Shown piece after piece: positions 1-22,002 of a DNA stretch of 64,000 nucleotides; position 1 is the stretch's first letter, and each line of letters opens with the position of its first letter. The translations under genes and the position numbers were made by a program. The notes below the pieces were generated by a model. That model was not told the origin of the DNA. It searched no databases and saw nothing but the letters and a program-made list of their open reading frames with translations. The DNA is from Candidatus Chloroploca asiatica (lineage in GTDB: Bacteria > Chloroflexota > Chloroflexia > Chloroflexales > Chloroflexaceae), in contig NZ_LYXE01000083.1 in the NCBI RefSeq assembly GCF_002532075.1, forward strand, positions 1 to 64,000, in the 5' to 3' direction.

Positions 1-60
1 GAGCCAGAAGATGTGCTGTGGGCTGGCAACAAAACGCCGAAGCGTGAGCGCTGCTGTCAT
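1..60 (-). CDS. N-terminal fragment of a gene cut by the window edge
   Basis: An ATG at 60-58 overlaps the TGA of the DUF1616 gene (ATGA), the coupling seen at many junctions of this cluster. The frame stays open for 20 codons to base 1 and reads MTAALTLRRFVASPQHIFWL. The fragment is too short to assign a family. The overlap and strand suggest it continues the polysaccharide operon downstream. Confidence 0.5.
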   Translation of the reverse strand, partial: MTAALTLRRFVASPQHIFWL

Positions 61-3678: not shown

Positions 3679-6181
3679 CGCATTGCTCCAGTCCACGACG
3701 TGACCACTGACTAGCAAAAGCGAACACTGCGAGAATGGTCAATCCAAGCAATCCTACTAGCGTGAAACCCAGCATGGCTGCCGTGCTGCTCGCCTTGAGA
3801 AGGGTTAACGGGTCACTTGCCTCGGTTGGCTGAACTGATACACGAGTTGATGGCAACTCCCAGACTTCATTCCCGCTTGATCGCAGGATAGGCATCAATG
3901 TCCAATCGCCGGCCATTGGAGGTGTCCAACTCAGCAAGAGATCCTGGCTCTGCTGGGACAGTAGTGCGAGGGTGCGCGTCATTACCAGCATTGCAGAGCC
4001 AGATTCTGGGGTGCCCCAGATCTCGATTGTTGCCGCTGGTAGATCTGTGAGCCCATCATTGTGCAGATGTAAGGTCATTGCCCCGGCCTCGTACTGCGTC
4101 AACTCAGTTGTGCTGAGGGTAACTGATGGATTGGGTGGAGTGATCTTCTGTGCTTTGAAGATACCGTCTTGAAACGTTATGCGGTATGAGCCAGATGGAT
4201 CGATTTTGGATATACCCATAACTTCAAGACCTCTATGGTGTGATCCAGGAGTAATCTCGAGTGTGAAACTCGCACGCCCGGCTTGATCCGCTCGGTAATT
4301 ACTCATCTTTGCATACATTGCTGAGATTAGGCGTCCATCGGCAAGATCGAACATTGACTTAAGTGTGCAGGGTAGTAAAGACTGGTCATCAGAGGTGGAC
4401 CCCCGTGTGACGCAGTTCTCGCTTTGGGATGGGGTTGGCGCAGATGCCCTGGCTTCTTGCCAGGAAGCAATGTTGTGTGGCGGTAGAAATGTAATCGTAT
4501 TAGTGCCAGGGACGAGTTGCTTGACGAAGATTTGGTCAGAAGTGCTATACACTAAATGATTTTCTATATGAAATAATTGCTCTTTTTTGCTCTGATCACC
4601 GATTACTTGCCAGCGATTAATACATGAGGAATTGGGATCACGGTAGTAACTTATCGTATATCCGTCATCGACAGCCCATAGGCCAAACTCAGCCTGAAGC
4701 AGATGGACACGCTGATCGATTAGGCTAACGCATAACTCAGGGATAACTCCCCCGAGCATACCAAACTCTCCACGCCAGCCGACTGGAATTTCGTCAAAAT
4801 GCCCAGATGTGAACTCATCTATTCTTCCTGTCAGGAATTGCGTGCCAGTTGGTCGTGCAGACTCCAGAATTGTCCAGATTGCACCAATGCCTTCTGTATT
4901 CTGGATACCTGGCCCTTCCCGTGCGACAAATGTGGTGTAATCCCAGGGCTGTTGCATAACCCAGGCTGGTAGTTTCGAGAAGGGGATCGTATTGGTGGTA
5001 AATGGGCCTAGTGGGTACGTCTCTGTTATTGATACCCGTCCGGCAATACTGAGTCGATAGTCCCAGATTGGTGCAGATGCAGTCACTGGCGTGAAGCGCC
5101 ATGTGTAGTCAATTTGTTGCACCGAAGTAGGTAGATGGTCGTTAATATCATCTGAAAATTCTCCTTGATGGAAATGAGCTATGCGAATTAGTACGTTTGG
5201 GTAGGTACGGCTCTCTTCATCATTGATCCCAGAGAAATTGTAAAAGGCAAACGGATCTTCCCAGTTAGATTTCGATACCACTCCTTCCTCAAGTGGATGG
5301 AATGTGTAAACGAAGAAGTTGCCGGGATTGGTACGTGAGGCGACAAACTCATTCAGCAATTCTATTCGTGCTTCTGCCCAATCAACAATAAGTGGTGGTT
5401 TGCTAGTACCATAATTCTTGGTAAGCTGCCAGCGTTCAGGCGAGATCAAATACCAGGGTCTACCTGGTTCTAAAGGAAACTCGTCATCTTCGGTGTTAAC
5501 AATCACGGTAGTACGAATGACGTTCCAACTTGATGGTACGTTGGGCCTAGACTTTCGCCACTCTATTTCAGGCAATCCATTACGATTATTATCACGAACG
5601 TAGATACGAGTATGTATCGTACTATCTAGAGCTATACGATCCATATAAATTTCGTCAAGCATTGTAGAGGAGACTTGCCCATCGATCTCGATATCTAGAT
5701 TCCAGTTAAATAGATCTTGGTCTTCTAACCAACCATCATGACCATAGATTGTCATCGTAGGTCCTGGCTCCAGGATTTGCACTTGTTCTCCCTCAATCTG
5801 ATAAGCAACTTTTCGATCTCCATTTTGATCATCAAAAATTGCTGCAGCGAGATAGTTCTCGACAAGGCTGAAACTGATTGCCAGTTCAATGTGCTGATCA
5901 TTGCCTGTATCAAACAGGACAGTAGTATTAGGAATACTCTTGGCTCGTTGCAGAACGTCACCGGGGTTCTCCCCATACTGCATAACTCCCGATCCAACGA
6001 TCTGAATGCGGTCAGTCGCAGAGAACCATCCCGGCTGACATAGGGCTGTAAGGGTGCTATGTGTGCGCTGTTGCACGATACAAGCTGTTTCCTGGCTTGC
6101 TAATACAATTCTCGTCTCAGCAAGGCTGGTGGCGATCAGAAACCCAAGCATGATTAGCGGAAAGAGGAATTTGCTAAGCAT
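3665..6181 (-). CDS. Large exported, membrane-anchored protein of unknown function
   Basis: About 838 residues from the ATG at 6181. It begins with MLSKFLFPLIMLGFLIATSLA, a signal peptide. A TTG nine codons upstream also opens the frame, but neither start has a clear ribosome site. The body is a beta-rich extracellular region without repeats I recognise. Roughly residues 690-790 resemble a CARDB-type Ig-like fold (NPSVTLSTTELTQYEAGAM and following). It ends with one TM helix (GFTLVGLLGLTILAVFAFA) and a short basic tail, so it should be anchored with its bulk outside. It is less GC-rich than the flanking glycosyltransferases. Its place between membrane and glycan genes suggests a surface or assembly role, but I do not recognise the family. 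Confidence 0.6.
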   Translation of the reverse strand: MLSKFLFPLIMLGFLIATSLAETRIVLASQETACIVQQRTHSTLTALCQPGWFSATDRIQIVGSGVMQYGENPGDVLQRAKSIPNTTVLFDTGNDQHIELAISFSLVENYLAAAIFDDQNGDRKVAYQIEGEQVQILEPGPTMTIYGHDGWLEDQDLFNWNLDIEIDGQVSSTMLDEIYMDRIALDSTIHTRIYVRDNNRNGLPEIEWRKSRPNVPSSWNVIRTTVIVNTEDDEFPLEPGRPWYLISPERWQLTKNYGTSKPPLIVDWAEARIELLNEFVASRTNPGNFFVYTFHPLEEGVVSKSNWEDPFAFYNFSGINDEESRTYPNVLIRIAHFHQGEFSDDINDHLPTSVQQIDYTWRFTPVTASAPIWDYRLSIAGRVSITETYPLGPFTTNTIPFSKLPAWVMQQPWDYTTFVAREGPGIQNTEGIGAIWTILESARPTGTQFLTGRIDEFTSGHFDEIPVGWRGEFGMLGGVIPELCVSLIDQRVHLLQAEFGLWAVDDGYTISYYRDPNSSCINRWQVIGDQSKKEQLFHIENHLVYSTSDQIFVKQLVPGTNTITFLPPHNIASWQEARASAPTPSQSENCVTRGSTSDDQSLLPCTLKSMFDLADGRLISAMYAKMSNYRADQAGRASFTLEITPGSHHRGLEVMGISKIDPSGSYRITFQDGIFKAQKITPPNPSVTLSTTELTQYEAGAMTLHLHNDGLTDLPAATIEIWGTPESGSAMLVMTRTLALLSQQSQDLLLSWTPPMAGDWTLMPILRSSGNEVWELPSTRVSVQPTEASDPLTLLKASSTAAMLGFTLVGLLGLTILAVFAFASQWSRRGLEQCDDPD

Positions 6182-6275
6182 AGTTCTAAATTCTGTCGGC
6201 TCAAACAAAGAATTTGGAGATACAAGGACGTGTCAGAGTTCGCTTCAGGTTCACTAGGCTACCGAAAGCTAGAAG

Positions 6276-8174
6276 TTAGCTCTGCGCAGGATACCGATCA
6301 AGCCAAGTTGCTAGTGTTGTGAGGGAGATCAGTGTCTGCGTTTCTAGATCGGAGTGCTTTGAGGAATTGAGTTTATCAATCACACGCTGACGATCAATGC
6401 AGCCTAGTTCCACCAACGGTCCATCAATCAGCACACTACGGGCTCGTTGCGCTCCTTCACTGACGCCGTTACTCAATTCATTAAGTAATTCAGATAAATG
6501 AGCATAACTTCCATAACTTCGCTGTCGAATCAAATGTTTGATGCCCATGTGATTAAGAGTCAGACGTATACGTTCACGGTTTGCACGCCAGAACTGTCGC
6601 ACTTGAAGGTGAAACGCTTGGATTAGTGGCGGAGCAAAGAGCGATGCACCTGTGTTGGCATAACGCATCCGAGCCATAGCTGGAGAAAGTTGTTGCAGTG
6701 CCGCACGGTAAACTGGCCCAAGAAAGCGCTGGCGTGGCGTAAGGCGTAGATATGTATCAAGGATCTCGGCATCGAAGAGTGGGGAGCGTTGTCGCGCATG
6801 AGTCCGAATAGACCGGAGCATAGGTTGCGATCGAAAGCGTCCCATTAAACCTGTCAAAACCTTCTCCATTTGTTCGAGAGGATCTTTCCAGTGTATTGAC
6901 ACTTGGCTCACCTGGTTTTCGATCAACTGAGACGCCATGTCCCAGGCTGTGTAGTAGCCTGGAGAGAGATAGCTATTGGCAAAATCACCCATATGACAGT
7001 CAAGGGTCATTAGTAAGTAGTGTTGCGCCTCGGTCTGATTCGCAATCTTAGGAAAGTTATAACTATAAAACTTATGTCCCCAGATGGTGAAATGATGCTT
7101 TGGCATATAGCTTCCTGCTAAGAATGCGTCTATCCCCCAGCCATCAAAAATGGTCGTAAAGCCTATCGCGCTGCTATAGCTTACGGTTTTCCATGTGTGG
7201 GTATGAGCCAAGGAAAACATGCCCTGCAAAGAAGGTAGAACTACCTCAAGTTGCTCCCAGTAATCAGATGCCGATTGCTTGATAAGCTTCCAGGGTAGTT
7301 GCGTCTGTCTAGCCAGGGCCTGCGCTACTTCACCTTCATCAGTTAAGTCTGGCCCAAAGGTCATACAGGTACAGTCGTTGAGATAAGGTGTGATACTAGC
7401 CAGAACCATCCGTGAGTCAACTCCACCGCTGAGCAAAAGCGCACTCCGACCAGCATCGCGGGTAATTCGTTGACCAGCATTTCTAAACGCCGTCACTATA
7501 GCCGCAGTTGCTTCATCATCTGATTCGTATGCCGATCCGGGTTGCATATGCCAGTAGCAATACTTCGCATACTTACCGGTGCGAAGATCGATACTCAGCA
7601 GGCTGGCAGGATCGAGGGTTCGAATTTCCTGGTAAATGGTACGATCATCAATGATCATCTGCAGCCGAATAAATTGTGCGATGCCAACAGGGTCAAGGTG
7701 ATAACGAACACCTGGTAGCGATAGCAGTGCACAAATATCAGTGGCGATCAACAAAAGGCCGGGCAGTTCCGCCAAGTAGAGCGGGCGTGAAGCCAATCGA
7801 TCGGTTGCAGCGATCAAGCGTTGTTCAGCATTGTCCAGCGCCAATAGGATAAATGAACCTGAGAGATTGCGCATGAGAGTAGAGATGTTGCTAGTGAGTG
7901 CAGGTATAACTTTGTCGGGTGCTAGTTCTATGTCTGAGGGGGTTCTATGTAGAGGTTCTACGTAGCCGTCAATGCAAAAAATATGATCCTCAAACTCCAT
8001 AATTGCAATATCACTGGTATTTGGTCGTCGATACAACGCAATTGACGCGTAGGGGGTGGTAAAAAAATCACTGCAAATATGCCCTGATGCTTTATTGATA
8101 CTAGCTAAAATTGATTTTTCTGTTTCCATTGTACAATTCGGAGATGTTTTAATCACGACGATTATCGATTCCAT
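6276..8174 (-). CDS. Asparagine synthase-like protein lacking the glutaminase cysteine
   Basis: A 632-residue protein with the two-domain AsnB layout. Residues 1-200 form a glutaminase-like domain (FIDGY-type turn seen as FCIDGYVEP, then NLSGSFILLALD and DRLASRPLY). After residue 220 comes an ATP-pyrophosphatase synthetase domain with the P-loop LLLSGGVDSRM. The catalytic Cys that follows Met1 in AsnB is absent (the protein starts MESI), so glutamine hydrolysis is not expected. The start is supported by GGAG ten bases before the ATG. In polysaccharide clusters such proteins are proposed to amidate uronic-acid sugars or a carrier; free ammonia or another nucleophile would then be used. Activity on asparagine is unlikely from the context. 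The gene is AT-rich relative to the cluster ends. Confidence 0.75.
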   Translation of the reverse strand: MESIIVVIKTSPNCTMETEKSILASINKASGHICSDFFTTPYASIALYRRPNTSDIAIMEFEDHIFCIDGYVEPLHRTPSDIELAPDKVIPALTSNISTLMRNLSGSFILLALDNAEQRLIAATDRLASRPLYLAELPGLLLIATDICALLSLPGVRYHLDPVGIAQFIRLQMIIDDRTIYQEIRTLDPASLLSIDLRTGKYAKYCYWHMQPGSAYESDDEATAAIVTAFRNAGQRITRDAGRSALLLSGGVDSRMVLASITPYLNDCTCMTFGPDLTDEGEVAQALARQTQLPWKLIKQSASDYWEQLEVVLPSLQGMFSLAHTHTWKTVSYSSAIGFTTIFDGWGIDAFLAGSYMPKHHFTIWGHKFYSYNFPKIANQTEAQHYLLMTLDCHMGDFANSYLSPGYYTAWDMASQLIENQVSQVSIHWKDPLEQMEKVLTGLMGRFRSQPMLRSIRTHARQRSPLFDAEILDTYLRLTPRQRFLGPVYRAALQQLSPAMARMRYANTGASLFAPPLIQAFHLQVRQFWRANRERIRLTLNHMGIKHLIRQRSYGSYAHLSELLNELSNGVSEGAQRARSVLIDGPLVELGCIDRQRVIDKLNSSKHSDLETQTLISLTTLATWLDRYPAQS

Positions 8175-8213
8175 GTATTTCTCCGGAGATATTATAATGG
8201 GCCTTGTGCTAAA

Positions 8214-9740
8214 TTATGAACGACCTTGAAAAGAAACAAGCGCATGTTGCGCCATAGCAAGTATTTGGTTAAGTTCGGTGCGTGGAAGCACTAGTCCAAT
8301 AATACCTCCATAGATCCCAATCGTAATCAGTGCCGACACGATGATGATTGACAGTGAACTCAACTTTAGTAAGGAAACAATGATAATAAAGATTATTAAC
8401 CCCACACTACCTACAGCTAGTGTCCGAATAATTGTGCTCAGTAACTCTTGACTATGTTTAGACAACAATTGGGGCAAAATCTGGCCGGTGCGCCAGAACA
8501 GGTATATGGCGCTCATCATAAGACTGCCTACGTAAATAAGCAGTAGACCAGCAAGTGATACCACGTTGGAGGTGAGCAGGGCCATGCTTCCTATGAATAG
8601 ACCGATAATATGTAAAGCCATCGCAACAGAGTTGTGGTTGCTATAACCAGTGCCCCAACAAATACGCCATGGGATCATGGTCAGTGCTCGGGTTGTGAAC
8701 GCAATGACTAAGATCTGTATAGAAAGCACGACTTCTGGGTAGGGCTGACCAAGCCAGACTTCAACCAGATCGTGTGCAACAAGGCATAGCATCAAACTCG
8801 GTGGGACGATGAGATAGATAACGTAACGCAGATACTGTGCAGCTAGACTCGCAATCTCGTCATGACGGTTTTGACTGTGGAGCCTGGCTATTGCCGGAAA
8901 GAGCGCAGCTACCATTGATTGGGCCAACGAGTTTGGTATAGCTGCCAGGGAACTGCTAATTTGCACTGTTCCAACACTAGCTGATCCAAGCCCAGCACCA
9001 ATGAAACTGCGGAGCAGTGGCTCTGAGATACTCTGGCCCAGGCTTGCACCCTGTGAATTTAAACTATAGCGAATGATCGGACGAATCTTCTGTCTTGATA
9101 TCCCAAAACGGAATCTCCAGGCAGGATATATAAGATAAAGACCTATTGCCATCATCACAACTCGCAGGAATCCTACGCCAAGGCTAACAGTTGCAACGCC
9201 AACTACACTAGCTTCATCATCAATGACAATCCAGAGTGTCAACCCCCACACAAACATTCCTACTATGTCAATCAGATAACGCAAATCAACGTATTGTAAT
9301 GCATCAAGTGCGGCAGCTAGGGTTCGGGCGATAACCATAACCAACAAAGTAAATAGGGTAAGATCAAAGGCTTGGTTGGCTAGAGGTAGAAGTTCATAGG
9401 GAACCTTGAACAATTGACCTAACAACCACTCTTGTTGCCAGACAAGTACTAGGATAAAGCAAAGTGTAAGTCCGGTATTTATCAAAATACCAGTATTGAT
9501 CAAGCGAAGACGCTCATCGTCGTCACTACTCTGATTGACAAACATAACAATCGCCGTAGTAATACCTAGATCGCTCAAGCTCTCATATGCAATGATTACG
9601 TTAAGCGTTGCCCAAATCCCAAACTGATCAACGCCAAGTTGTCGTAGTAGCAGTGGAGTTAGCAAAAATCCAATGGTAACGGTGACAATTTGGGCTATCA
9701 GACCAAGCATAGCCACAAAGATGTGCTTTTGTGTTGTCAT
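8214..9740 (-). CDS. Wzx-type polysaccharide flippase (MOP superfamily)
   Basis: A 508-residue protein with about 14 hydrophobic segments. It opens with the usual MOP start (VAMLGLIAQIVTVTIGFLLTPLLLRQLG, read here in parts), in which LLLRQLGVDQFGIWA matches the TM1-TM2 signature of Wzx and related flippases. An amphipathic SQGASLGQSISEPLLR segment follows mid-protein. It would move the undecaprenyl-linked repeat unit from the cytoplasmic to the outer face of the membrane, where a polymerase would act. No ribosome site is obvious before the ATG. The 137 bp to the next gene downstream is one of the longer gaps in the cluster. Confidence 0.85.
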   Translation of the reverse strand: MTTQKHIFVAMLGLIAQIVTVTIGFLLTPLLLRQLGVDQFGIWATLNVIIAYESLSDLGITTAIVMFVNQSSDDDERLRLINTGILINTGLTLCFILVLVWQQEWLLGQLFKVPYELLPLANQAFDLTLFTLLVMVIARTLAAALDALQYVDLRYLIDIVGMFVWGLTLWIVIDDEASVVGVATVSLGVGFLRVVMMAIGLYLIYPAWRFRFGISRQKIRPIIRYSLNSQGASLGQSISEPLLRSFIGAGLGSASVGTVQISSSLAAIPNSLAQSMVAALFPAIARLHSQNRHDEIASLAAQYLRYVIYLIVPPSLMLCLVAHDLVEVWLGQPYPEVVLSIQILVIAFTTRALTMIPWRICWGTGYSNHNSVAMALHIIGLFIGSMALLTSNVVSLAGLLLIYVGSLMMSAIYLFWRTGQILPQLLSKHSQELLSTIIRTLAVGSVGLIIFIIIVSLLKLSSLSIIIVSALITIGIYGGIIGLVLPRTELNQILAMAQHALVSFQGRS

Positions 9741-9877
9741 TGAATATCGGCAATCAATGTGATCATCATGTACTAGTTTCGATTGTTGTGTTTTAGATCA
9801 TGACGGCGCAGTGGCAGAAATCGAGTGTTAACGCCGCTGACTATCAGCAGGGGGCTTGTGCAACTTTAACCTTTTCA

Positions 9878-11068
9878 CTATTCATCCCCGTTCGCCAAAC
9901 AACTGAGTGTTTCAGCAACGTACTTGATCTCTCTCTCAGTCAATAAAGCTGAAGAAGGTATGTTTATACCTCGTGCTGCTACTGTTTCGGCAACTGGGAA
10001 GACACGTTTGTTGGATAAATGCTGATAAGGCGGCAATATATGCATCGGATAGAAAAAGGGACGTGTTTCAATGCCCTGCTGAGACAGTTTTTCCATTGCT
10101 GTATCACGATTATATGGAAAGTTCTCATTAAAAACAATACTATTCATCCAGTATACATTTTTACAACCTGGCAATTCCGGTTGCAGGACAAAGCTCAGAT
10201 GATTGCCCAGATTATCCCGGTATAATTGGGCATTCGCACAGCGCTGTGCAATATGCCAATCAACTCGCTCCATCTGTGCAAGTCCAATTGCAGCCTGAAT
10301 ATTTGTCATGCGATAGTTATAGCCGATGATAGGAAACCAATAACGACGCTTGAAGTCCTGCCCCTGGCCTTTGAGTTGACGCATACGTGAGGCAAGATTT
10401 GCATCATTAGTCACAGTCATACCACCCTCGCCAGATGTGATGATTTTGTTGCCGAAAAAGCTGAAAGTTCCGATATGACCAATACTGCCCACTCGACGCC
10501 CCTTATATTCGGCTCCATGCGCTTCAGCAGCATCCTCTACGACAAACAGGTTGTATCGCGCTGCGATCTCCATGATCGGATCCATATCAGCGGGATGCCC
10601 AAAGAGGTGAACCGCAATGATTCCCTTTGTGCGAGGCGTAATCAGCGCCTCGATTGCTGCTGGATCCATATTCCATGTCGTTGGTTCGGAGTCGACAAAA
10701 ATTGGTGTTGCGCCACAGTAAGAGACAGCATTTGCCGTAGCAACAAAGGTCAGGGTTGGTACGATTACCTCATCACCGGAGCCTACGTCAAGTGCCAATA
10801 GCGCGATATGAAGTGCTGCGGTGCCATTACAACAGGAGATAGCATGACTTGTTCCACAGAAATCTGCAAACTTTTGTTCAAACTGCTCGATGTACTTTCC
10901 AGATGAAGAGATCCAAGTTGAGGAAAGGGCTTCATTGACATAGGCGATTTCATTGCCTACGAGTGCAGGTTCGGCGACTGGCAAGAAGCGGCGTGATGCA
11001 AGCGTGCTGTCTTCGGTATGAAATGCAGACGATGTACTCTGGAATAACTTCGGATCTCTAGTCATCAT
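9878..11068 (-). CDS. DegT/DnrJ/EryC1/StrS sugar aminotransferase
   Basis: About 396 residues, a PLP-dependent fold-type I sugar aminotransferase. Visible landmarks are CNGTAALHIALLAL near 80 (cofactor phosphate site), VEDAAEAHGAEYKGRRVG with the PLP-binding Asp, and FSFFGNKIITSGEGG, where the Lys forms the internal aldimine. The family moves an amino group from glutamate to a keto-sugar nucleotide; the nearest types are perosamine (C4) synthases and PglE/LegC-like enzymes. GAGG just before the ATG pair at 11068/11065 fixes the start, rather than the GTG at 11077. The acetyltransferase gene lies 21 bp upstream, so the product is probably acetylated at the new amine. Confidence 0.88.
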   Translation of the reverse strand: MMTRDPKLFQSTSSAFHTEDSTLASRRFLPVAEPALVGNEIAYVNEALSSTWISSSGKYIEQFEQKFADFCGTSHAISCCNGTAALHIALLALDVGSGDEVIVPTLTFVATANAVSYCGATPIFVDSEPTTWNMDPAAIEALITPRTKGIIAVHLFGHPADMDPIMEIAARYNLFVVEDAAEAHGAEYKGRRVGSIGHIGTFSFFGNKIITSGEGGMTVTNDANLASRMRQLKGQGQDFKRRYWFPIIGYNYRMTNIQAAIGLAQMERVDWHIAQRCANAQLYRDNLGNHLSFVLQPELPGCKNVYWMNSIVFNENFPYNRDTAMEKLSQQGIETRPFFYPMHILPPYQHLSNKRVFPVAETVAARGINIPSSALLTEREIKYVAETLSCLANGDE

Positions 11069-11089
11069 GATCCTCACAGTTCAGTGTAT

Positions 11090-11689
11090 TTAGCTTCGCC
11101 ATACAGCCGGAACCCCTGTTGCGATAGCGTTATCTGGTACATTTTTGACGACTACCGCACCCATACCAATAACGGCATCATCACCTATCTGAAGGCGCTC
11201 TCGAATAAGTGCGCCAGCGCCGACGTAGGCAGCCGACCCAACCCGACACCACCCACCCACGGCAGCCCCTGGTCCAATTACTGCGAGAGTCTCAACCAAG
11301 GTGTCATGACCAATGGTCGCGTTGTAGTTGACAAGCACCATTGCGCTGAGCCGTGCATTCGGTGCAACCACAGCCCCAGGCGCAATCACACATCCCGGTC
11401 CGATTGACCCAAGCACCACCGCACTAGGGTGGATAATGGTGGCGAATGGGGGACGGATCTCATGCATCATTCTTCGGCGAATAGCACCACTTCCAGCACC
11501 GATGACAGTTTCTCCTGGCGATATCTTGTTCGCTTCGTAGTATGCTTCGAGGCTGATAATATCCTCTCCCTGGTTGTGTGGATCTACATACACAATCCGT
11601 CGTGTAGGGTCGGAGATTTGTGCATAGGCAGCAACTTCACGAGCGTGTCCAGATGAGCCAAAAATATATAGTGGTCTTGTGTTGCTCAT
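11090..11689 (-). CDS. NeuD/PglD-type sugar acetyltransferase
   Basis: A 199-residue protein. Residues 1-85 form a small Rossmann-like domain (PLYIFGSSGHAREVAAYA) that in PglD binds the UDP-sugar. A left-handed beta-helix of hexapeptide repeats follows (VIAPGAVVAPNARL, NYNATIGHDTLVE, IGPGAAVGGWCRVG, IGMGAVVVKNV). His in NATIGHDT is the expected general base. PglD, PerB and NeuD use acetyl-CoA to acetylate an amino- or hydroxyl-sugar. Partnership with the adjacent aminotransferase implies N-acetylation of a 4-amino sugar. The ATG overlaps the stop of the upstream GT4 gene by four bases. Confidence 0.85.
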   Translation of the reverse strand: MSNTRPLYIFGSSGHAREVAAYAQISDPTRRIVYVDPHNQGEDIISLEAYYEANKISPGETVIGAGSGAIRRRMMHEIRPPFATIIHPSAVVLGSIGPGCVIAPGAVVAPNARLSAMVLVNYNATIGHDTLVETLAVIGPGAAVGGWCRVGSAAYVGAGALIRERLQIGDDAVIGMGAVVVKNVPDNAIATGVPAVWRS

Positions 11690-12783
11690 AACGACTCTTT
11701 GGCGATGATAGCGTACAGTTGCAGTAATTCACGGATTGTGCGAGACCAGTCGTAATTGCCGATGACGTTTAACCCATGCTGACCCATCTGCCGACGCAAC
11801 TCACTGTTATCAAGGCATGTGGCAATCGCATCGGTAAGCGCTTCTCGATTACGTGTTGGTACTACGCTTACCGCAGGTCGCGCATCGTCGGGTATTGCTG
11901 CAGCCGTTGTTGCTACAACGGGCCTCTCACAAGCGAGTGCCTCCATGACCATCCACGCGAAGCCACCTTCCAAAAGTGTAGCAGTCACACACAAATCGGC
12001 GATGTTGTAAAAAAGAGGTAAATCTTCCTCTGGTACCACATCGAAAAAGATAACCGCATCCTCAAGTTTGAGGCGCACAATCTGTTCGATCAGAAGATCT
12101 CGCCAGCGTTGCCCTCCTGGGGAGCCTACTTTAAGCAAGCGGACGGGATAGCCCCTAGCTCGCAAGATAGCAAGGGACTCGATAATCATGCCGACATTCT
12201 TTCGTGGTAACTCACTACCTACGTAGAGAAGATTGAATCGTTCATCAAGGGAATGTAGTCCGTAGGTTGCGGCGAGACGGCTATGTGCATCAGGGATAAC
12301 ACGAAAGTGTTCAATATCCACACCAAGTTGCACATGATGGATGCGCCTCTCGTCAATGCCAAGTCGCTCAATAAGATCATCGCGGGTTTGAATTGAATTA
12401 ACCGCGTAGTAATTCATCTTGCGAAGACCAGCAAGTTGAACTGATAAGACACGACGACTGATAGGGTTGTGTAAAGGGCTGTCCTCAGGACACACAAGCA
12501 CACCAAGATCATGGACAGTTGCAATCGCTGGCCGAAAAGGACGCCAAAGCATCTGGGCACAGCCCATGATTTGCGTGAAATGTACAATACTGCCCGGCTG
12601 GTGTTGTGAAAGACCAACCGGAAAGTGACGAAGTACTTCGAATCGATCTGCTAACGGTAGATTTACAGGGTGGACGATTCTCACGGCTATACATTGCTGA
12701 AGATGAGCGTATAATTCTCGCACATAGCGTCCTATCCCACTCACGGAATGAATCGGATTGTGAGCTACAAGTTCAACTTGCAT
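11686..12783 (-). CDS. GT4-family glycosyltransferase with unusual EX8E spacing
   Basis: About 365 residues from the ATG at 12783 (MQVELVAHNPIHSVSGIGRY), 13 bp after the previous stop. An ATG at 12831 would overlap that gene, and neither has a strong ribosome site. SVSGIGRYVREL and YVGSELPRKNVGM are standard GT4 acceptor and donor loops. The donor-binding glutamates appear in LLEGGFAWMVMEALACE, with eight residues between them instead of seven and a Glu where most members have Gly after Cys. The site may still work with a shifted loop. Substrate unknown; it belongs to the assembly line of this cluster. Confidence 0.82.
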   Translation of the reverse strand: MQVELVAHNPIHSVSGIGRYVRELYAHLQQCIAVRIVHPVNLPLADRFEVLRHFPVGLSQHQPGSIVHFTQIMGCAQMLWRPFRPAIATVHDLGVLVCPEDSPLHNPISRRVLSVQLAGLRKMNYYAVNSIQTRDDLIERLGIDERRIHHVQLGVDIEHFRVIPDAHSRLAATYGLHSLDERFNLLYVGSELPRKNVGMIIESLAILRARGYPVRLLKVGSPGGQRWRDLLIEQIVRLKLEDAVIFFDVVPEEDLPLFYNIADLCVTATLLEGGFAWMVMEALACERPVVATTAAAIPDDARPAVSVVPTRNREALTDAIATCLDNSELRRQMGQHGLNVIGNYDWSRTIRELLQLYAIIAKESL

Positions 12784-12796
12784 GTGGGATTGATCT

Positions 12797-13981
12797 CTAG
12801 ACCGCTTGAACGTGTGTTGCTGGTCGCTCATACAGTTCTTTCTGATACAACGCGGTGGTTTCAGCAACGGTGCGCTCCCAGGTATACATGGCGGCTCGCT
12901 TCGGTCCAGCAAGGCAGACCCATTCTCGGAGCAGAGCGCCATCAAGGACGGAACCAAGCGCATCGGCAAGTCCCTTTACGTCGGTCGGATCGATCAACAC
13001 CCCCGCATCCCCCACCAATTCCGGCAGCGAGGCAGCGTTGGCTGCCACCACCGGCGTTCCACATGCCATGGCCTCCAGCACTGGAAAGCCAAAGCCCTCG
13101 TAGAGTGAGGGCATCACACAGAGATCGGCCAGGCTGTAGAGGGCCGGCAGATCCTCCTCTGGCACCTCGTCGAGCCAGTGGATGGCGGTGCTGATGCCTA
13201 GCTCCTCGGCGAGTGTAACCAATCGTTGGCGTTCAGCCATGAAGTGGGCGCGTCCCACCTTGATCAACTCCACTTCGGGGTGTTGCCTCCGCACAATGGA
13301 CAGGGCCTGGAGCAGGGTGCCAAGATTCTTGCGAGGATCTTCCGAGCCAACATAGATTAGATACCGTTGTCCTGACGGTAGGCCATAGTGTATCCGTAGT
13401 TCTTCTGTTACGACCCGGGGCTGAAAGCGCTCATGGTCAATCCCCAGGTGAACCACGCTGATCCGCTCCGGTGCCAGGCCCAGGTGTTCAATGAGAGTCT
13501 GCTTTGTATAGTGCGAGTCAGCCACAAGGTGGTCGGCGCGGTGCAAACCTCGCATTGCCAACCAATCAAAAAGCCGGTCGGCAAAGGTGCGGTAGGTACT
13601 GAGTTGCGGGTTGTTGCGCAGCATGTAAGGGATGATGTCGTGAACGGTCACGATCACTCGTCCAGGGGGTCGACGAAAGAGCAGCAGTGTGGCCAGATTC
13701 TGGCTGGTCAGGTGATACACATCAGCGGACGGATAATCTGCCCAGACCGGGTAATTCATCAGGAAAGTTCGCACATCTGCCCCAAGTCGCCGTAAGGCAA
13801 AGTAGACCATGGAGGGCAACGGCGGTGCAATTGGTGCCACACGGCTTACGCGAAGCCCTTCCGCCTCCAGGCCATGCTGCAGCATCTGCACATAGCGTCC
13901 TACGCCAGTCTGCGGGCCACCAGGCTTGGCGATCAGTGCAATGGTGCCGTGCCACTGACTATGACTAGTAGGCTGTTTCAT
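12797..13981 (-). CDS. GT4-family glycosyltransferase (intact parent of the 14.8 kb remnant)
   Basis: A 394-residue GT-B retaining glycosyltransferase. The acceptor domain shows PGGPQTGVGRYVQMLQ. The donor domain shows YVGSEDPRKNLGTLLQAL and SLYEGFGFPVLEAMACGTP with a regular EX7E. Its first 70 codons are closely matched by a decayed copy at 14779-14978, so this is the surviving copy or a replacement. It is more GC-rich than the methyltransferase gene 10 bp upstream. It should add one residue to the lipid-linked oligosaccharide in the cytoplasm; the sugar is not predictable. Confidence 0.87.
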   Translation of the reverse strand: MKQPTSHSQWHGTIALIAKPGGPQTGVGRYVQMLQHGLEAEGLRVSRVAPIAPPLPSMVYFALRRLGADVRTFLMNYPVWADYPSADVYHLTSQNLATLLLFRRPPGRVIVTVHDIIPYMLRNNPQLSTYRTFADRLFDWLAMRGLHRADHLVADSHYTKQTLIEHLGLAPERISVVHLGIDHERFQPRVVTEELRIHYGLPSGQRYLIYVGSEDPRKNLGTLLQALSIVRRQHPEVELIKVGRAHFMAERQRLVTLAEELGISTAIHWLDEVPEEDLPALYSLADLCVMPSLYEGFGFPVLEAMACGTPVVAANAASLPELVGDAGVLIDPTDVKGLADALGSVLDGALLREWVCLAGPKRAAMYTWERTVAETTALYQKELYERPATHVQAV

Positions 13982-13991
13982 GATGACGGTG

Positions 13992-14747
13992 CTAAGATTT
14001 TACAGCAACAACGCCTATACCACCAGGTCTACCAAAGCAAAAAAACTTTTCTATACTAGAAATCATCCGAAGTATTAACCCAACCATTAGTGACACTCCT
14101 ATAAAGCGGCCTATGGCTTTGCTTTCAATGAAAACCTGTATTTCTCTTGCAAAAAGAGTTGGTGTAAAGTAGAAATAAAAGTATTTTTCAATATCAAAAC
14201 CAACGCTTTTTACTAATTCACATAAACCATCTTGAGAATATTCACGTTTATGATCCTCAAAGTTCATCCTTTGAAAATACGAAGGACGATCAGCCAGCAA
14301 AGTCGTTAAAACTAATCTGCTATTTGGAGCAAGCACGCGGTACATCTCTTCTACCATAGCGCGGTCATCAGGTACATGCTCAATGACGTCAATGGCAATA
14401 ATACGTGAGAAGGTATCTCTCAAGAACGGAAGTTGCTCGGCATTCGCTACACCAATGTGAGCTGAGTGTGTTGGATGTAATAAACCACATGGAGCCTTCC
14501 ATGACTTGATATATTTCGTAAATCCTTTGTCTAAATCAATTGCAACAAAGGATCTCGATCGGGGTGTAAAAAATGACGTCCAAAGACCAACTCCACACCC
14601 GATCTCAAGAACATGATCACGAGATGAGATTTGTACCCCTTCAATTACTTGTTTGGCTCTGGCTTGCCAATACATCGAAAGACTGCGATTTTCTAAGTAT
14701 GAGTAGAGTCCAGATAGACGCTTCATCAGATAATCCAAAGTTATCAT
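13992..14747 (-). CDS. Class I SAM-dependent methyltransferase
   Basis: About 251 residues from the ATG at 14747, which has GGGAG eight bases before it; the longer frame to 14792 runs into the glycosyltransferase remnant. Motif I is VLEIGCGVGLWTSFF with the glycine-rich SAM loop, motif II FVAIDLDKGF, and motif IV IIAIDVIEHVPDD. This is a Methyltransf_11-type domain. The C-terminal half ends in a hydrophobic stretch (FIGVSLMVGLILRMISSIEK), which suggests membrane contact. It probably methylates a sugar hydroxyl or a lipid-linked glycan. The gene is AT-rich and bracketed by two copies of the same glycosyltransferase 5' end, which marks it as a late arrival. Confidence 0.82.
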   Translation of the reverse strand: MITLDYLMKRLSGLYSYLENRSLSMYWQARAKQVIEGVQISSRDHVLEIGCGVGLWTSFFTPRSRSFVAIDLDKGFTKYIKSWKAPCGLLHPTHSAHIGVANAEQLPFLRDTFSRIIAIDVIEHVPDDRAMVEEMYRVLAPNSRLVLTTLLADRPSYFQRMNFEDHKREYSQDGLCELVKSVGFDIEKYFYFYFTPTLFAREIQVFIESKAIGRFIGVSLMVGLILRMISSIEKFFCFGRPGGIGVVAVKS

Positions 14748-14778
14748 TGATAATACTCCCTTTACAACAATGCATGAA

Positions 14779-14978
14779 GAATGTGCAAACATCCATACCT
14801 AGACGCTGTAGGGCAAAGTCCGCCATTGTCGGCAGCGGTGGTGACGCAGGGGCCACACGGGCCACATATATTCCTCGGCCTCCAGGCCACTCTGCAGCAT
14901 CTGCACATAGCGCCCTACGCCAGTATGCGGGCCACCAGGCTTGGCGATCAGAGCAACGGTGCCATGCCGCTGCTTCAA
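14779..14978 (-). pseudogene. Decayed 5' fragment of a GT4 glycosyltransferase gene
   Basis: Reading the minus strand, this stretch gives HGTVALIAKPGGPHTGVGRY, then a one-base deletion near 14870 shifts the frame, and the homology resumes as VARVAPASPPLPTMADFALQ and RLGMDVCTFFMH. The intact gene at 12797-13981 has HGTIALIAKPGGPQTGVGRY, then APIAPPLPSMVYFALRRLGA and DVRTFLMN. The match covers about 200 bases in the same orientation and stops where the methyltransferase leader begins. It cannot make a functional enzyme. It sits directly after the GT2 stop codon. Confidence 0.85.
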
Positions 14979-14983
14979 TGGCA

Positions 14984-16138
14984 TTACCACCGGCTTCTTC
15001 TCGCACTATCAATGAGATCAAGTAAAGGCATCGACCAGACGACAACATCAGCCATGGTTAGGGCTGGTATTGCCGCAAACAACATGGCTGGTACCGGGTG
15101 CCCACTTAGTCGTGTACTAAAGCTAGCGTAGCGGAGCCGAGCCAACATACCGTGAGAAAGCAGTAGGAACCAGAGCAGCAGCACTGGTCTCAGGCGTAAC
15201 CCAACCACTGGCAGTAGCAGCATCCCGAGCCCGATCGCAAGCGTACGTCGTGTAGCGGCTACATCTTTCCATGCCTCGTAGACTGGACCATAGATCAGCA
15301 GGTTGCGCAACCATCGCGATTGCTTGCGCTGGTAGGTGATGAAGGTTTCTGGGTACCCGGTAGACACAACACTCTCACGGACAAACCGGATCGTCAAACC
15401 TATCTGCAACAATCGCTTGGCAAGTTGGTAGTCGGTGCCGGTTGGAGCTTGATAGTTCAGTCCTCCAATGTGTGCGATGGCGTTCCGTGTCAGGGCTGCA
15501 TTCCTGCCCAGTAGTCCGTCGCTGATCGTCGAGCGGTGCGCATCGCTGACCATTTCTGCAGCCCATAGATGGCGCGGCAAGATCTGTTCCATCTGCTCAT
15601 CAAGCAGGCGTGAACTACCGGTTGCAACCTGCTCGCCCTCGTTCACCAGCGGGGCCAACAGGCGAGTCAGCGCCTCATCATCAAACAGGCAGTCAGCATC
15701 AGTCAGGTAAACAATCTCGCCAGTTGCATATTCGAGGCAACGGGCCAGGGCGCGCTGTTTGCCCTCACCAGGTTGCTGCTCGATGACGGTCACATGTGGC
15801 CCGGCGTAGCGCAGCGCCCGTACATAGGTCTCATCAGTGCCACCAGCGCAGAGGATCAGTTCAATGTCGGGGTACGTCAGTTCCAGAAACGAACGCAGGT
15901 GAGCCTCGATCTGTGAACCCTCGTTCCAGGCCGCTACGAGTGTACTAACCTTTGGCGTGCGGATTAGTGTCGGTACAGGTGGGTGCTCGGCGCGCAACCG
16001 GTCGGCCAGCGCCCGATCTTGTTGCCAGAGCCGCCAGTTATGAATAACAACGCCTGTCAAGCCCATCAGGAGCAACGCAGCATGCATATTGGAGAGGTTG
16101 GGCTTTAGTTTATTAAACATGTGTTTTGTGGAACTCAC
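14984..16138 (-). CDS. GT2-family membrane glycosyltransferase (processive type)
   Basis: A 384-residue inverting glycosyltransferase. One N-terminal TM helix (AALLLMGLTGVVIHNW) precedes a GT-A domain with VSTLVAAWNEGSQIEAHL, the metal-binding DAD of VYLTDADCLFDD, GTDYQLAKRLL, and KQSRWLRN matching the QxxRW signature of cellulose- and hyaluronan-synthase-like enzymes. Three or so C-terminal helices follow. QxxRW suggests chain extension or transfer to a lipid at the membrane. The start is a GTG at 16138 or the ATG at 16120; no strong ribosome site separates them. It is GC-rich, unlike the gene upstream. Confidence 0.83.
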   Translation of the reverse strand: MSSTKHMFNKLKPNLSNMHAALLLMGLTGVVIHNWRLWQQDRALADRLRAEHPPVPTLIRTPKVSTLVAAWNEGSQIEAHLRSFLELTYPDIELILCAGGTDETYVRALRYAGPHVTVIEQQPGEGKQRALARCLEYATGEIVYLTDADCLFDDEALTRLLAPLVNEGEQVATGSSRLLDEQMEQILPRHLWAAEMVSDAHRSTISDGLLGRNAALTRNAIAHIGGLNYQAPTGTDYQLAKRLLQIGLTIRFVRESVVSTGYPETFITYQRKQSRWLRNLLIYGPVYEAWKDVAATRRTLAIGLGMLLLPVVGLRLRPVLLLWFLLLSHGMLARLRYASFSTRLSGHPVPAMLFAAIPALTMADVVVWSMPLLDLIDSARRSRW

Positions 16139-16235
16139 TCGATCTTACCGAGGATTGCGCAAACTCGACACGTATCTGCTTGTCAACTTAGTACTTTGAT
16201 TGACCTGAATGACCTTACGGCACATTCAATATCCA

Positions 16236-17825
16236 CTAATTATCAAGAGGTTTAGCTTTCATCACGATCAGATATTTTTCAGCTTGCATTGTGTCATAGG
16301 AATCTGAAAGGATTGATGCCGCATCATAGATATTGCTACTGCATCCAAAGAGAAATATATAATTTGATCTAGGGGGGTGATTTTGAATTTGAATCAGGTT
16401 TTCTCGAGTAAATTTTTGCAGCAAATTAAATTTTAGTGTGGGGTCAATTTCTTCAAATTTTAGTGCTGGTTCAATTTCTTTTTGCAAAGTTAAAGCTGCT
16501 GTACTAAACGTATGTACAGGCATCGGTTTTCCATAAATAACACTATAGACAGAAAACCATTGCAACGGAAATATACCATTACCTATATTCAAGTAGTCCT
16601 GTTGTGAGCAGTTACCATAGATGGGTGGTTGCCGTATCGACAGGGAATAGACACTTTCCCCGGAAGGCACAGCCTGGATAGATTCGTACATTGCAGAGAG
16701 TTGTCTGTCAGATGCTTGAAATATTACCCCATGTGCGCTAATGAAGGCCATGATAATTGCCAAAACAGTATAATTTACAGTACGTGAAACAGTCGTTGTT
16801 TTAAATCCCAGAGCTAACACTATCATGGCTATGAAGCCGAAACGCTGGTCAACCGCACCCATGCCCATGAAAAATGTGAAAGGCATTGCGATTGCAATTA
16901 CAAAAAGAATTATCGATGTCAAAACCAACTCTTTATTTTTAATAATGGATTTATTATAAAAGGAGTAAATCAACATGATAATCAAGATAATCGCATACAA
17001 TATATTAAGAATAGAGATAGGGAGAGGACTTGGGAAGGGATCAATGCGTTGAAAAGACAGTAAAGGAAGTATTAAAGATGCTAATTTATTTAAAACCGAT
17101 TCGTAATATACTATCCCAGATGAACCATGATGACCTGCGATTCGAGATATAGTATACCACAATAACATCGCTATCACAGGAATTTGTGTCATAGCTACAT
17201 GCCATGGCTGTATTCTTCTTGTCCATAAGGTAATAGCGACAAAGATAATCAGAGGAATATAAATAAATAAGTGACACAAATAACACAGCATCGAGATAAT
17301 AGTTAATGCGGCTAAATGTGTAGTATGTAAAAAACTTCCAAATTTATTTACAACATATATTCCGTAAACTAGTAATGGAATTCCGATTGTGAAGCTTAAA
17401 AATCCATTATAAAGAAAATAGTTATAAGCAAAAAACACACCTAACCATGAAGCAGGCGTTGATTTTTTAACAAAATCAACATTTGTTTTGGCAAAAACCA
17501 GAATCATTGCTATGATATACATGGATATTACAATTTTAGATCCTATTTCTGCATTGAAAAAACTTGTTGTTGCCAGCGAAAAAAGAGTGCTTCCAAGATT
17601 TGGGGTTGGCGCAAAGGATACGGAATAAAAATTTTTGTATTGATCATAATTTTGTAATACGTGTGCTTGGAACACCCACTGATGATAGTCATAAAAAGGC
17701 AAAAATCGAACCGACCATATTGGTATAAGTGAAGCTATTATAATAATCAAAAGTGCTATTTTATCAAAATCGAATTTTAATATTTTTACATGAATGTTGG
17801 TCACGAAATGGGTAATTCTTTGCAT
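16236..17825 (-). CDS. AT-rich polytopic membrane protein, possible polymerase or GT-C enzyme
   Basis: A 529-residue protein with about eleven TM segments and a soluble C-terminal domain of about 130 residues. TM1 is followed by RFLPFYDYHQWVFQAHVLQN, with an acidic residue in the first outer loop, as in GT-C transferases. The family is not recognised. Base composition is strikingly AT-rich (long runs of A and T, many Ile, Lys, Asn and Phe codons) compared with GC-rich neighbours on both sides, which suggests transfer from another genome. The cluster has a flippase but no clear Wzy polymerase, and this protein or the one at 2095-3678 could fill that role. Confidence 0.6.
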   Translation of the reverse strand: MQRITHFVTNIHVKILKFDFDKIALLIIIIASLIPIWSVRFLPFYDYHQWVFQAHVLQNYDQYKNFYSVSFAPTPNLGSTLFSLATTSFFNAEIGSKIVISMYIIAMILVFAKTNVDFVKKSTPASWLGVFFAYNYFLYNGFLSFTIGIPLLVYGIYVVNKFGSFLHTTHLAALTIISMLCYLCHLFIYIPLIIFVAITLWTRRIQPWHVAMTQIPVIAMLLWYTISRIAGHHGSSGIVYYESVLNKLASLILPLLSFQRIDPFPSPLPISILNILYAIILIIMLIYSFYNKSIIKNKELVLTSIILFVIAIAMPFTFFMGMGAVDQRFGFIAMIVLALGFKTTTVSRTVNYTVLAIIMAFISAHGVIFQASDRQLSAMYESIQAVPSGESVYSLSIRQPPIYGNCSQQDYLNIGNGIFPLQWFSVYSVIYGKPMPVHTFSTAALTLQKEIEPALKFEEIDPTLKFNLLQKFTRENLIQIQNHPPRSNYIFLFGCSSNIYDAASILSDSYDTMQAEKYLIVMKAKPLDN

Positions 17826-17872: not shown

Positions 17873-19183
17873 TTACCTTACCCAGAATTCTTCACGGGCA
17901 ACCTCGGGTCGGGATGCGCTTTTGAACCAGCGATAGCGAGGCTCTTGTCCGTTGCAGGCTTCAATGAGATCCGGGGTCTCACGGTAGTGGAGGCATCGCC
18001 CGCCAAAGGTGCATTCGGTTTCATAGGTGGCGCTTGTCACCACTGGAAGTTCGCCGGTCACGCAGCTTGCCAGGTAGCGGAAGGCTTTGTGGCACCAACC
18101 TGCTACCGGCAGCAGATCGCGGAAGTCGGGGATCTGGCTTGGGCGTTTGTTCGCCTGGCCGGCAAAGCCAGTCGCAGTTGCAATGCCACCTGTCGGTGAT
18201 TGACCAGCGAGCAGACGTGCTTCGATGGCGGTGGTGGCAAGTATTAGTCCATGGGGGCGCAGCAACGTGATGACATAGAGCACATCGCCCAATGGTGCTA
18301 TCCAGCTTGGGTGGTGTGATTTGTGTCCGTTGGCGTAGATTGCGGTGGGCAAAGCTCCGGTGACATCGACCTGGCGCAGAACAAAGAGCAAAGCCCGGAT
18401 TGCTGCATCCAGGTAGCGCTCCTGGCGCGTGTAGGTGAAGCCGCGTAACAGCGCCGGTACACAGCGCACAATGTAGACTGGGAAATATTTGTCGACGACC
18501 CGTTCCCCAAAGCTATTCTGGGCAATCGCGCCATCGTACGAACCGCCGCGTACCTGGTGCGCCAGGATGCGATCAAGGTTTGGCAGGGCGTACTGCTCAA
18601 TCCAGTGCGCTTCACCGCTCAGTTCGGCCTGCAGGAAGAGCGTCTCGCAGGCAGTAGCCGCCTTGTTGGGTACGAAGGAAGGGACAAGCGGGCTGTCGCG
18701 GAAGCTGCGTGCTGCCTTGTCCCAGAGTTGGCCAAGGTAAAATTGCTCCAGGTTATGTTGGGCAGCCGTGGCATATACGTGCCATCCCTCCCGTTTGGCC
18801 TGGCGTAGTGCGAGGGCCAGCAGCAGCAATGCGCCAGCGCATGCGGCCTCGTGGGGGGTGCCAGCGCTGGCCGGGTTAATCTCGAAGGCTGAGGCGACAA
18901 AGTGCCCGTTGGGAAGTTGGCCTGCCACCAGATCGTCACCAGCCCGCCTGGCTTTTGCCAACCACTGCTCAGCCCCTGTCCGTTCCCAGAGGGTCAGGTA
19001 TCCAGAGATAATGCCCTCATAGCGCCAGTCCAGGCCTGCTCCAGTGTAGAGCAAGCTCTGTTGCCACCAGTGTGCGACCGGGCCTCCATAGCCCCCAGGT
19101 CCGCGCATCGTTTCAAACCACGCGTCCAATTTGGCTACAGCGTGTGCAATTGTGACATCGGGTTTGACGGGTGTGCTGATCAT
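17873..19183 (-). CDS. Putative alpha/alpha-barrel protein of unknown function
   Basis: About 436 residues. The ATG at 19183 overlaps the stop of the upstream gene (ATGA), so it is preferred over the ATG at 19204. The sequence is a series of helical hairpins with aromatic and Gly-rich turns: WRYEGIISGYLTLWERTG, EAACAGALLLLALALRQA, KAATACETLFLQAELSG and RYLDAAIRALLFVLRQ. This is the look of a six-hairpin (alpha/alpha)6 barrel such as glycan epimerases, unsaturated glucuronyl hydrolases or terpene-cyclase-like folds. There is no signal peptide. It may modify or sense a sugar intermediate, but no catalytic motif is certain. Confidence 0.55.
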   Translation of the reverse strand: MISTPVKPDVTIAHAVAKLDAWFETMRGPGGYGGPVAHWWQQSLLYTGAGLDWRYEGIISGYLTLWERTGAEQWLAKARRAGDDLVAGQLPNGHFVASAFEINPASAGTPHEAACAGALLLLALALRQAKREGWHVYATAAQHNLEQFYLGQLWDKAARSFRDSPLVPSFVPNKAATACETLFLQAELSGEAHWIEQYALPNLDRILAHQVRGGSYDGAIAQNSFGERVVDKYFPVYIVRCVPALLRGFTYTRQERYLDAAIRALLFVLRQVDVTGALPTAIYANGHKSHHPSWIAPLGDVLYVITLLRPHGLILATTAIEARLLAGQSPTGGIATATGFAGQANKRPSQIPDFRDLLPVAGWCHKAFRYLASCVTGELPVVTSATYETECTFGGRCLHYRETPDLIEACNGQEPRYRWFKSASRPEVAREEFWVR

Positions 19184-19779
19184 ACTACTGTTGCTTTTTT
19201 GCATGCTAGTACGAGTGCCACGGTGGCCAGAGGCATTGCGACGCCGTGCGTCATATAACCGAGTCGCGCAGCGAACTCCAGGCGATCACGCAGATCTGCA
19301 CGTCCAATTCGCGTCATAAGCCCGCCCAGGCTGTTCAGGCCAATGGCGTATACGCTGTGGATACCGTATTTCGCCTGAACATAGAACCCTGCACGTCGGA
19401 GGCCGTTACCCAGTCGGGTGATGCCTCCAGGCTTGATTCCGATTGGGACGCCTCGCCAGGTTTGACGATCGGGAAGCAGGCGAGCGAGAGGTTGCGAGGC
19501 AATGATTGCCAGCTGTGTCCCCGGTGGAAGGGTCGTGGCTAACGTATTGAGCACCTGCTGCCAGTTTACTTGCTGTGGCTCGATCCAGAGTGCTGCCGAA
19601 GGATAGATGGTGTGTTGCATATAATCCGAGACCGGCAAACGTTGAGCCAACTCGGCGTCCAATTCCGGCTGTTCACAACGAACCAGGGGCCTCACATTAC
19701 CCAGCAGCGCCAGCGCTCCATCAATGGCATAGCGGTAGTCGAGTGGTGCAAGTTGGCTGACGGGTAGAGAGCTGATCAA
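19180..19779 (-). CDS. Small protein resembling a truncated methyltransferase
   Basis: A 199-residue protein coupled by ATGA overlaps on both sides. LPPGTQLAIIASQ near 95 and LRRAGFYVQAKYGIHSVYA near 130 resemble the late strands of a class I methyltransferase, but the N-terminal SAM-binding glycine motif is missing. The C-terminus ends in a hydrophobic helix (GVAMPLATVALVLACKK). It could be a degenerate methyltransferase acting as a partner protein, or an unrelated family. Retention of an open frame and tight coupling to the barrel protein downstream suggest that the two work together. Confidence 0.45.
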   Translation of the reverse strand: MISSLPVSQLAPLDYRYAIDGALALLGNVRPLVRCEQPELDAELAQRLPVSDYMQHTIYPSAALWIEPQQVNWQQVLNTLATTLPPGTQLAIIASQPLARLLPDRQTWRGVPIGIKPGGITRLGNGLRRAGFYVQAKYGIHSVYAIGLNSLGGLMTRIGRADLRDRLEFAARLGYMTHGVAMPLATVALVLACKKATVV

Positions 19780-20964: not shown

Positions 20965-22002
20965 TTACGCTGTGCTCCTGTTTCTCGGGATGGGGCGCAT
21001 CAGACGATAGATCGGATTGAAGATGCGGCTCGATAGGCTGGCGAGCCAGTGCGATGCGACTTGCTCAAACTCCAGGTGATCGCTCATCGAAGCAAGGACA
21101 GTCTCGTCCGACTGTCGGCGTAGGGTCGCTACGTGTTTGCGCGATCGCGTGATTGCCCAGCGGTTGCGCCAGAGCCAGGCATAAACCCGTGGTTTGACCG
21201 TCCAGTACGCTGGCCCGCGCATGAGCAGGTAGCCACCTGTGACCAGTTCACTCAGCAGAAGCCCAGGGAGGAGCCGGATGTAGGTCGGCCAGTGGAGATT
21301 CTTCAGCAGCATCAGGTGCCGGTTGCGCTCTAGGTAAAAAGCCTTGGATGGGCTGTACTTCATGGTGTAGTGATGTTCGACCAAGGCTTCGGGCACATAA
21401 CGAATGCGGTACCCTGCGATCCGTGCCCTCAATGAGAGGTCGCTGTCTTCAACATACATAAAGAAGCGCTCATCCAGGCCGCCCAACGCGCAAAAGAGTT
21501 CGCGCCGTATGGCAAAAGCTGCGCCCGAGATGGCGTCAACATCGGCAGGCCTGGTGTATGCGGTTCTCGCTTGCCCCGCCCCACGGCAATAGGTTAATCC
21601 GGTGTAATGCATCGTATTGCCACAGGCATTGATTGTCTCGGGTTGGTCGCCGAGCAACAGGCATGCGGTGGTTAGCCCCACGTCTGGTTCATGCTTTAGC
21701 GGTGCAAGCAGTGCGGCAAGCGCGCCTGATCGCACCACTGTATCAGGATTAAGAAAGACCAGATAGGTGCCGTTGGCGGCGTTGGCTCCTCGATTATTGC
21801 CCCCTGCATAGCCCGTGTTAGGGCCGCAGATCAACCGTGCCGAGGGGAATTGGGCCGCAACCAGGGCCACACTGCCATCAGATGAGCCATTGTCCACAAC
21901 GATCAACTCATCTTCGGGGCCAAGCTGGGCGCAGATCGCCTCTAGGCATGCCGCTAGATAGGGGCGGCTGTTGTAGCTCACCACGATCACGCTGGTGCTC
22001 AT
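20965..22002 (-). CDS. GT2-family glycosyltransferase (rhamnosyltransferase-like)
   Basis: About 345 residues. The ATG at 22002 overlaps the upstream stop (ATGA), and the protein then begins MSTSVIVVSYNSRPYLAACL; the longer frame to 22119 runs inside the neighbouring gene. The GT-A core shows LIVVDNGSSDGSVAL, NPDTVV in the DXD position, SGAAFAIRRELF and VEDSDLSLRARIAGY. This pattern is that of the WbbL/RfbF rhamnosyltransferase-like branch, although the donor is not certain. The C-terminal 90 residues include one amphipathic or membrane-associated helix (LLPGLLLSELVTGGYLL). Likely peripheral membrane. Confidence 0.86.
   Translation of the reverse strand: MSTSVIVVSYNSRPYLAACLEAICAQLGPEDELIVVDNGSSDGSVALVAAQFPSARLICGPNTGYAGGNNRGANAANGTYLVFLNPDTVVRSGALAALLAPLKHEPDVGLTTACLLLGDQPETINACGNTMHYTGLTYCRGAGQARTAYTRPADVDAISGAAFAIRRELFCALGGLDERFFMYVEDSDLSLRARIAGYRIRYVPEALVEHHYTMKYSPSKAFYLERNRHLMLLKNLHWPTYIRLLPGLLLSELVTGGYLLMRGPAYWTVKPRVYAWLWRNRWAITRSRKHVATLRRQSDETVLASMSDHLEFEQVASHWLASLSSRIFNPIYRLMRPIPRNRSTA

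Follow-up and report, generated by a model that had tools for sequence, protein, structure and literature searches.

Within a surface-polysaccharide cluster of the 64,000-nucleotide stretch of DNA analysed here (the window), the minus strand carries, in this order, a GT2 glycosyltransferase gene, the dead front piece of a GT4 glycosyltransferase gene (the stub), a methyltransferase gene and an intact GT4 gene (table 1). The intact enzyme is matched over both GT-B halves (Glyco_transf_4 and Glycos_transf_1), and its relatives are 58-63% identical to it. Two of its residues, E295 and E303, which we take to be the glutamates of the E-x7-E motif, are invariant among seven aligned proteins. The stub starts at GTG 14990 or at ATG 14984, overlapping the GT2 stop codon.

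Table 1.— Features of the GT2/GT4 locus, with coordinates in the window.
Feature	Coordinates	Strand	Basis and remarks
GT2 glycosyltransferase	14984..16138	-	Pfam Glyco_tranf_2_3 and Glycos_transf_2; conserved upstream neighbour of the GT4 place
Dead GT4 front piece (stub)	14769..14990	-	Alignment; 14972-14769 corresponds to codons 9-76 of the intact GT4
Stub segment 1	14876..14972	-	9 differences in 97 bases against intact 13861-13957; read as recently exchanged
Stub segment 2	14769..14875	-	38 differences in 107 bases against intact 13753-13859; divergence as to other genera
AT-rich class I SAM methyltransferase (cargo)	13992..14747	-	Pfam Methyltransf_23 and Methyltransf_11; GC3 0.317
Intact GT4 glycosyltransferase	12797..13981	-	Pfam Glycos_transf_1 and Glyco_transf_4

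A direct repeat and the gene it encloses

The preliminary description of this DNA had reported a repeat of 14779-14978 and 13755-13960 in the same orientation, with the frame of one copy broken by a single base, and had proposed a pairwise alignment as a check. In our alignment, positions 14972-14769 of the stub match positions 13957-13753 of the intact gene in the same orientation over 205 bases, at 77% identity and with one single-base gap, so that the earlier coordinates are right within about 10 bases; the frame break is located near 14876. Of the 204 aligned bases 47 differ, and the alignment score is 169, far above the best score of 28 obtained when the stub region was shuffled 300 times by single bases. 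Within its own genome the stub has no other DNA match than the intact GT4 (E 1e-36). At the protein level, stub and intact GT4 share 83% identity over 35 residues; the intact protein shares 40% with the next full-length GT4 of the genome, and a chance likeness within the large GT4 family was rejected. The homology stops at codon 76, 21 bases short of the methyltransferase start; thus, the stub would fall short of a whole gene even with the frame break put down to a sequencing error.

The gene between the two copies encodes a methyltransferase domain above the curated cut-offs (PF13489, 60 bits against 27; PF08241, 57.8 bits against 21.2). As a named equivalog, none of the NCBIfam models listed reaches its cut-off, the best being the DVU_1556 family with 42.1 bits against 155, and it is therefore from context only that we infer a decorating role, O-methylation of a polysaccharide sugar. 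Translation likely starts at 14747, after a ribosome-binding-like GGGAG (identified by eye), and not at the ATG 14792 inside the stub. The gene is AT-rich, as first described, with a GC content of 39% and a GC3 that is the second lowest among the 41 window genes of at least 700 bases (mean 0.592), and this composition marks it as foreign. A match at E 1e-20 occurs in one of the 81 other genomes of the order, a congener (38% identity), and one at E 1e-30 in one of the 399 other genomes of the phylum sample, the same congener. Fourteen plasmid records match the gene, at no more than about 37% over part of the query and none covering 80% of it, and a plasmid source was rejected. Signs of a mobile element were looked for and not found: the methyltransferase is not flanked by inverted repeats, and none of the ten genes in 6276-19204 matches a transposase or integrase family.

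Composition varies along the cluster. The GT2, the intact GT4 (GC3 0.633) and the ORF 17873-19204 form a core class with GC3 of 0.60-0.64. Between that ORF and the GT2, which are adjacent to each other in two related loci (L032 and L033), lies the AT-rich ORF 16236-17825, of 529 residues and with the lowest GC3 of the 41 genes (0.304). Searches assigned it to no Pfam or NCBIfam family and found no relative in 99 other genomes; it is a second insert in the same cluster. Near its end, at 16428-16480, is an imperfect direct repeat of 26 bases with a spacing of 27. A block of six genes (3665-12783; GC3 0.43-0.46) makes up a third compositional class beside the core and the AT-rich inserts. The existence of three such classes indicates that the cluster was assembled from blocks of differing composition.

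Related loci and the ancestral place of the GT4 gene

We counted 15 distinct related loci in which a single contig carries a GT2 relative together with a GT4 relative; L069-L072, which by their identical lengths and mirror-image coordinates are the same contigs as other sampled loci, were counted once, and L035 (in which no GT2 relative was seen) and L036 (which ends behind GT2) stand outside the count. Only relatives with a GT4 near enough to be caught entered, so the 15 are no random sample. The alignment scan of named genomes retained 80 of the 160 confirmed loci; a scan of genome contigs with one protein alone yielded no confirmed locus. A full-length GT4 directly follows GT2 in eight of the 15 loci (L032, L033, L065, L067, L073, L074, L075 and L077), and a truncated one in two (L108 and L114); other DNA separates the genes in three (L034, L064 and L066), and GT4 is elsewhere on the contig in two (L076 and L080). 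In L032 and L033 the GT2 that directly precedes GT4 is 55-56% identical to that of the window. At thresholds of E 1e-15 and 1e-12, none of the 15 loci has a relative of the window's methyltransferase between its GT2 and its GT4. The preliminary description had predicted that related strains would show GT2 and then a single GT4 with no methyltransferase between them, and this is seen in related loci, here from other genera. In L077 a methyltransferase 32% identical to that of the window (5487-6143) is found directly after GT4, not before it.

The junction itself is informative. In L032, L033, L065 and L067 the two genes overlap at their stop and start: the bases of the last Trp codon and the stop of GT2 also supply the ATG or GTG of GT4 and its following codon. 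The window retains, as judged by eye, such an overlap between GT2 and the stub (GTGGTAA, 14990-14984), and it is missing before the intact GT4, which begins 10 bases after the methyltransferase. Thus, the stub occupies the old place of GT4, and the ancestral order, as read from these junctions, appears to be GT2-GT4 with overlapping stop and start codons.

Among the seven relatives tested, none has a second GT4 front piece, and in the search for truncated GT4 genes within the class all nine other genomes matching the front 165 residues have open frames of at least 390. The truncated GT4 genes of L108 (8995-9468) and L114 (7446-7922) have only about 157 codons, lie directly behind GT2 and are followed by unrelated genes, in L114 by a sulfotransferase-like gene; they are 58% identical to each other and have nearly the same end point. 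In L108, an ORF of 219 residues (3996-4655) contains only the C-terminal half of a GT4, in the same cluster as an N-terminal half, and the two are perhaps a split enzyme or two wrecks.

Mosaic structure and polarity of the exchange

Identity between stub and intact GT4 is uneven, at 91% over the first 97 bases (segment 1) and 64% over the remaining 107 (segment 2). Where both copies encode the same residue, 4 of 28 codons differ synonymously in segment 1 and 13 of 22 in segment 2 (Fisher p 0.002). The max-chi break falls at gene base 125, with the alignment gap at 122, and none of 3000 permutations produced one as strong. Some other pairs, too, are better conserved at the front end (the synonymous divergence of the intact gene from its relatives is 0.44-0.67 for segment 1 and 0.65-0.83 for segment 2), and the mosaic test was therefore repeated by simulation, with per-site rates taken from 28 pairs formed by the intact gene and seven relatives. 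The differences expected were 21.4 and 25.6, those observed 9 and 38, and none of 20000 simulations was as extreme. The synonymous fraction of segment 1 (0.15) is lower than any value obtained when the intact gene was compared with five relatives in stretches of 32 codons (lowest 0.28), and that of segment 2 (0.65) equals the values of the intact GT4 against other genera (0.65-0.83). An RNA element as the cause of the high identity of segment 1 was rejected, with no Rfam match in 12500-16500.

The mosaic border, situated at the frame break, is direct evidence of recombination between two copies. By codon position, the differences between stub and intact gene number 16:7:24, with third positions enriched (p 0.003); this pattern, together with the divergence of the segments, indicates that the stub was once a working, long-diverged allele that exchanged about 100 bases with the other copy. 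Two different GT4 alleles met here, one of them was truncated, and the methyltransferase came to lie between them. A close source of the stub within the order was rejected: besides its own genome, only one of 81 genomes has a match, over 45 bases.

The locus is probably a recombination scar in a surface-polysaccharide cluster. The foreign methyltransferase gene, most likely travelling with a diverged second allele of the same GT4, would have entered the GT2-GT4 junction; the GT4 beside GT2 would have been cut at about codon 76, its front piece remaining as a dead stub; and the exchange of some 100 front-end bases, at entry or later, would have produced the mosaic with its border at the frame break. 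That the intact GT4 arrived together with the methyltransferase, and that events took this order, is inferred. Insertion or replacement through homologous recombination at the glycosyltransferase gene had been put forward in the preliminary description. Such an event finds support in the mosaic border, in the position of the stub where GT4 ancestrally lay, and in the methyltransferase, which is foreign in composition and missing between GT2 and GT4 in the related loci; yet no homology was seen at the outer borders (the stub end and both sides of the methyltransferase), so that at least one join was probably non-homologous. Counted against the scar are the shortness of the segments (97 and 107 bases) and the lack of a stub in the seven relatives tested.

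A congener, G002, bears on the polarity of the exchange. In its version of the locus one flank is conserved (87% for 21999-22973) and the interior differs. At the far edge (L062, 6309-7625) it carries a full-length DUF1616 gene, 49% identical to the window gene 57-941; adjoining this gene is a 3' stub, which forms part of 260 bases that match window positions 1-260 at 91.5% identity. This pair is a further scar made up of an intact copy and a stub, and it lies at the opposite edge of the locus. In G002 the 3' stub has the look of resident backbone, and the full-length gene seems to belong to the new interior. Reasoning from this parallel, we favour, short of proof, the stub of the window as the resident GT4.

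The opposite polarity is possible, although we regard it as doubtful. The intact GT4 would then be the resident, and a circle or fragment with a foreign GT4 front and the methyltransferase would have integrated by crossover in segment 1. A single crossover there yields exactly the order seen and explains the high identity of that segment, and the core-like GC3 of the intact GT4 counts against its foreign origin, so that the stub may instead be what came in, beside a resident intact gene. Nevertheless, the far-edge stub in G002 seems to belong to the resident backbone, and no donor was found that joins a GT4 front piece to such a methyltransferase, whose matches in the order and in the phylum sample (one genome in each) come from the same congener. 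A tandem duplication, in which the resident GT4 doubled in place, its upstream copy took up the methyltransferase or was largely replaced by it, and that copy then decayed, would be the simplest account of a direct repeat and would suit the 91% identity of segment 1. Decay predicts, however, differences spread evenly along the length and over codon positions, and third positions are enriched; since the repeat is a mosaic and segment 2 is as diverged as other genera, this was no fresh duplication that decayed, and duplication in place is improbable and already strongly disfavoured. An assembly artefact, whether by merging of two related genomes or by a base-calling error at the frame break, is very improbable: the genome is a draft of 199 contigs and the break is a single base, but the GT2/stub junction retains the ancestral overlap, the listed completeness is 100 and contamination 0.98, the end of homology at codon 76 is independent of frame, and two copies differing at 47 of 204 bases are not one sequence assembled twice.

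Precedents and a possible docking site

Gene-swapping scars of this kind are already known from other bacteria, and the window adds a new example. The closest precedent found for the recombination scar proposed here is that of galE1 and galE2 in Neisseria meningitidis, where Regions D and D' of the cps island carry an intact galE1 and a truncated galE2; the latter marks the original recipient gene, and the authors of that study propose illegitimate recombination into the resident galE (PMC5349592). There, as in the window, the acquired polysaccharide genes are flanked by an intact and a truncated copy of the same sugar gene, the two being different alleles. The meningococcal repeat, on the other hand, is inverted and that of the window direct; galE2 is without its front 402 nucleotides, whereas our stub is front only; and the cargo is a whole capsule island, as against one methyltransferase gene, perhaps with the GT4 (PMC5349592). 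In the galactose-initiated O-antigen clusters of Salmonella, remnants of wzy and of the H-repeat are found; as in the window, what is left of polysaccharide genes at the edges of modules testifies to earlier replacement, and the degree of divergence shifts abruptly across recombination borders (PMC3715488). Those remnants derive from a polymerase gene, wzy, and the H-repeat element, whereas that of the window derives from a glycosyltransferase, with no mobile element seen. A literature search found no paper on the present locus, which says little given its open-licence scope.

How a cell-surface polysaccharide locus acquires a decorating enzyme can be read here at a single site, in which cargo, stub, mosaic border and ancestral order are all visible. 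Taking the window together with the truncated GT4 genes of L108 and L114 and the other DNA at the junction in L034, L064 and L066, one may tentatively hypothesize that the GT2/GT4 junction, whose stop/start overlap is conserved, is a recurrent docking site for module exchange in polysaccharide clusters of Chloroflexota, with GT2 and the GT4 front serving as a shared homologous arm and exchange repeatedly leaving a truncated GT4, a proposal we consider less likely than not. Only in this repeated use of one junction may there be anything new. If different genomes do indeed reuse it, the junction would provide a marker for finding such exchanges in bulk.
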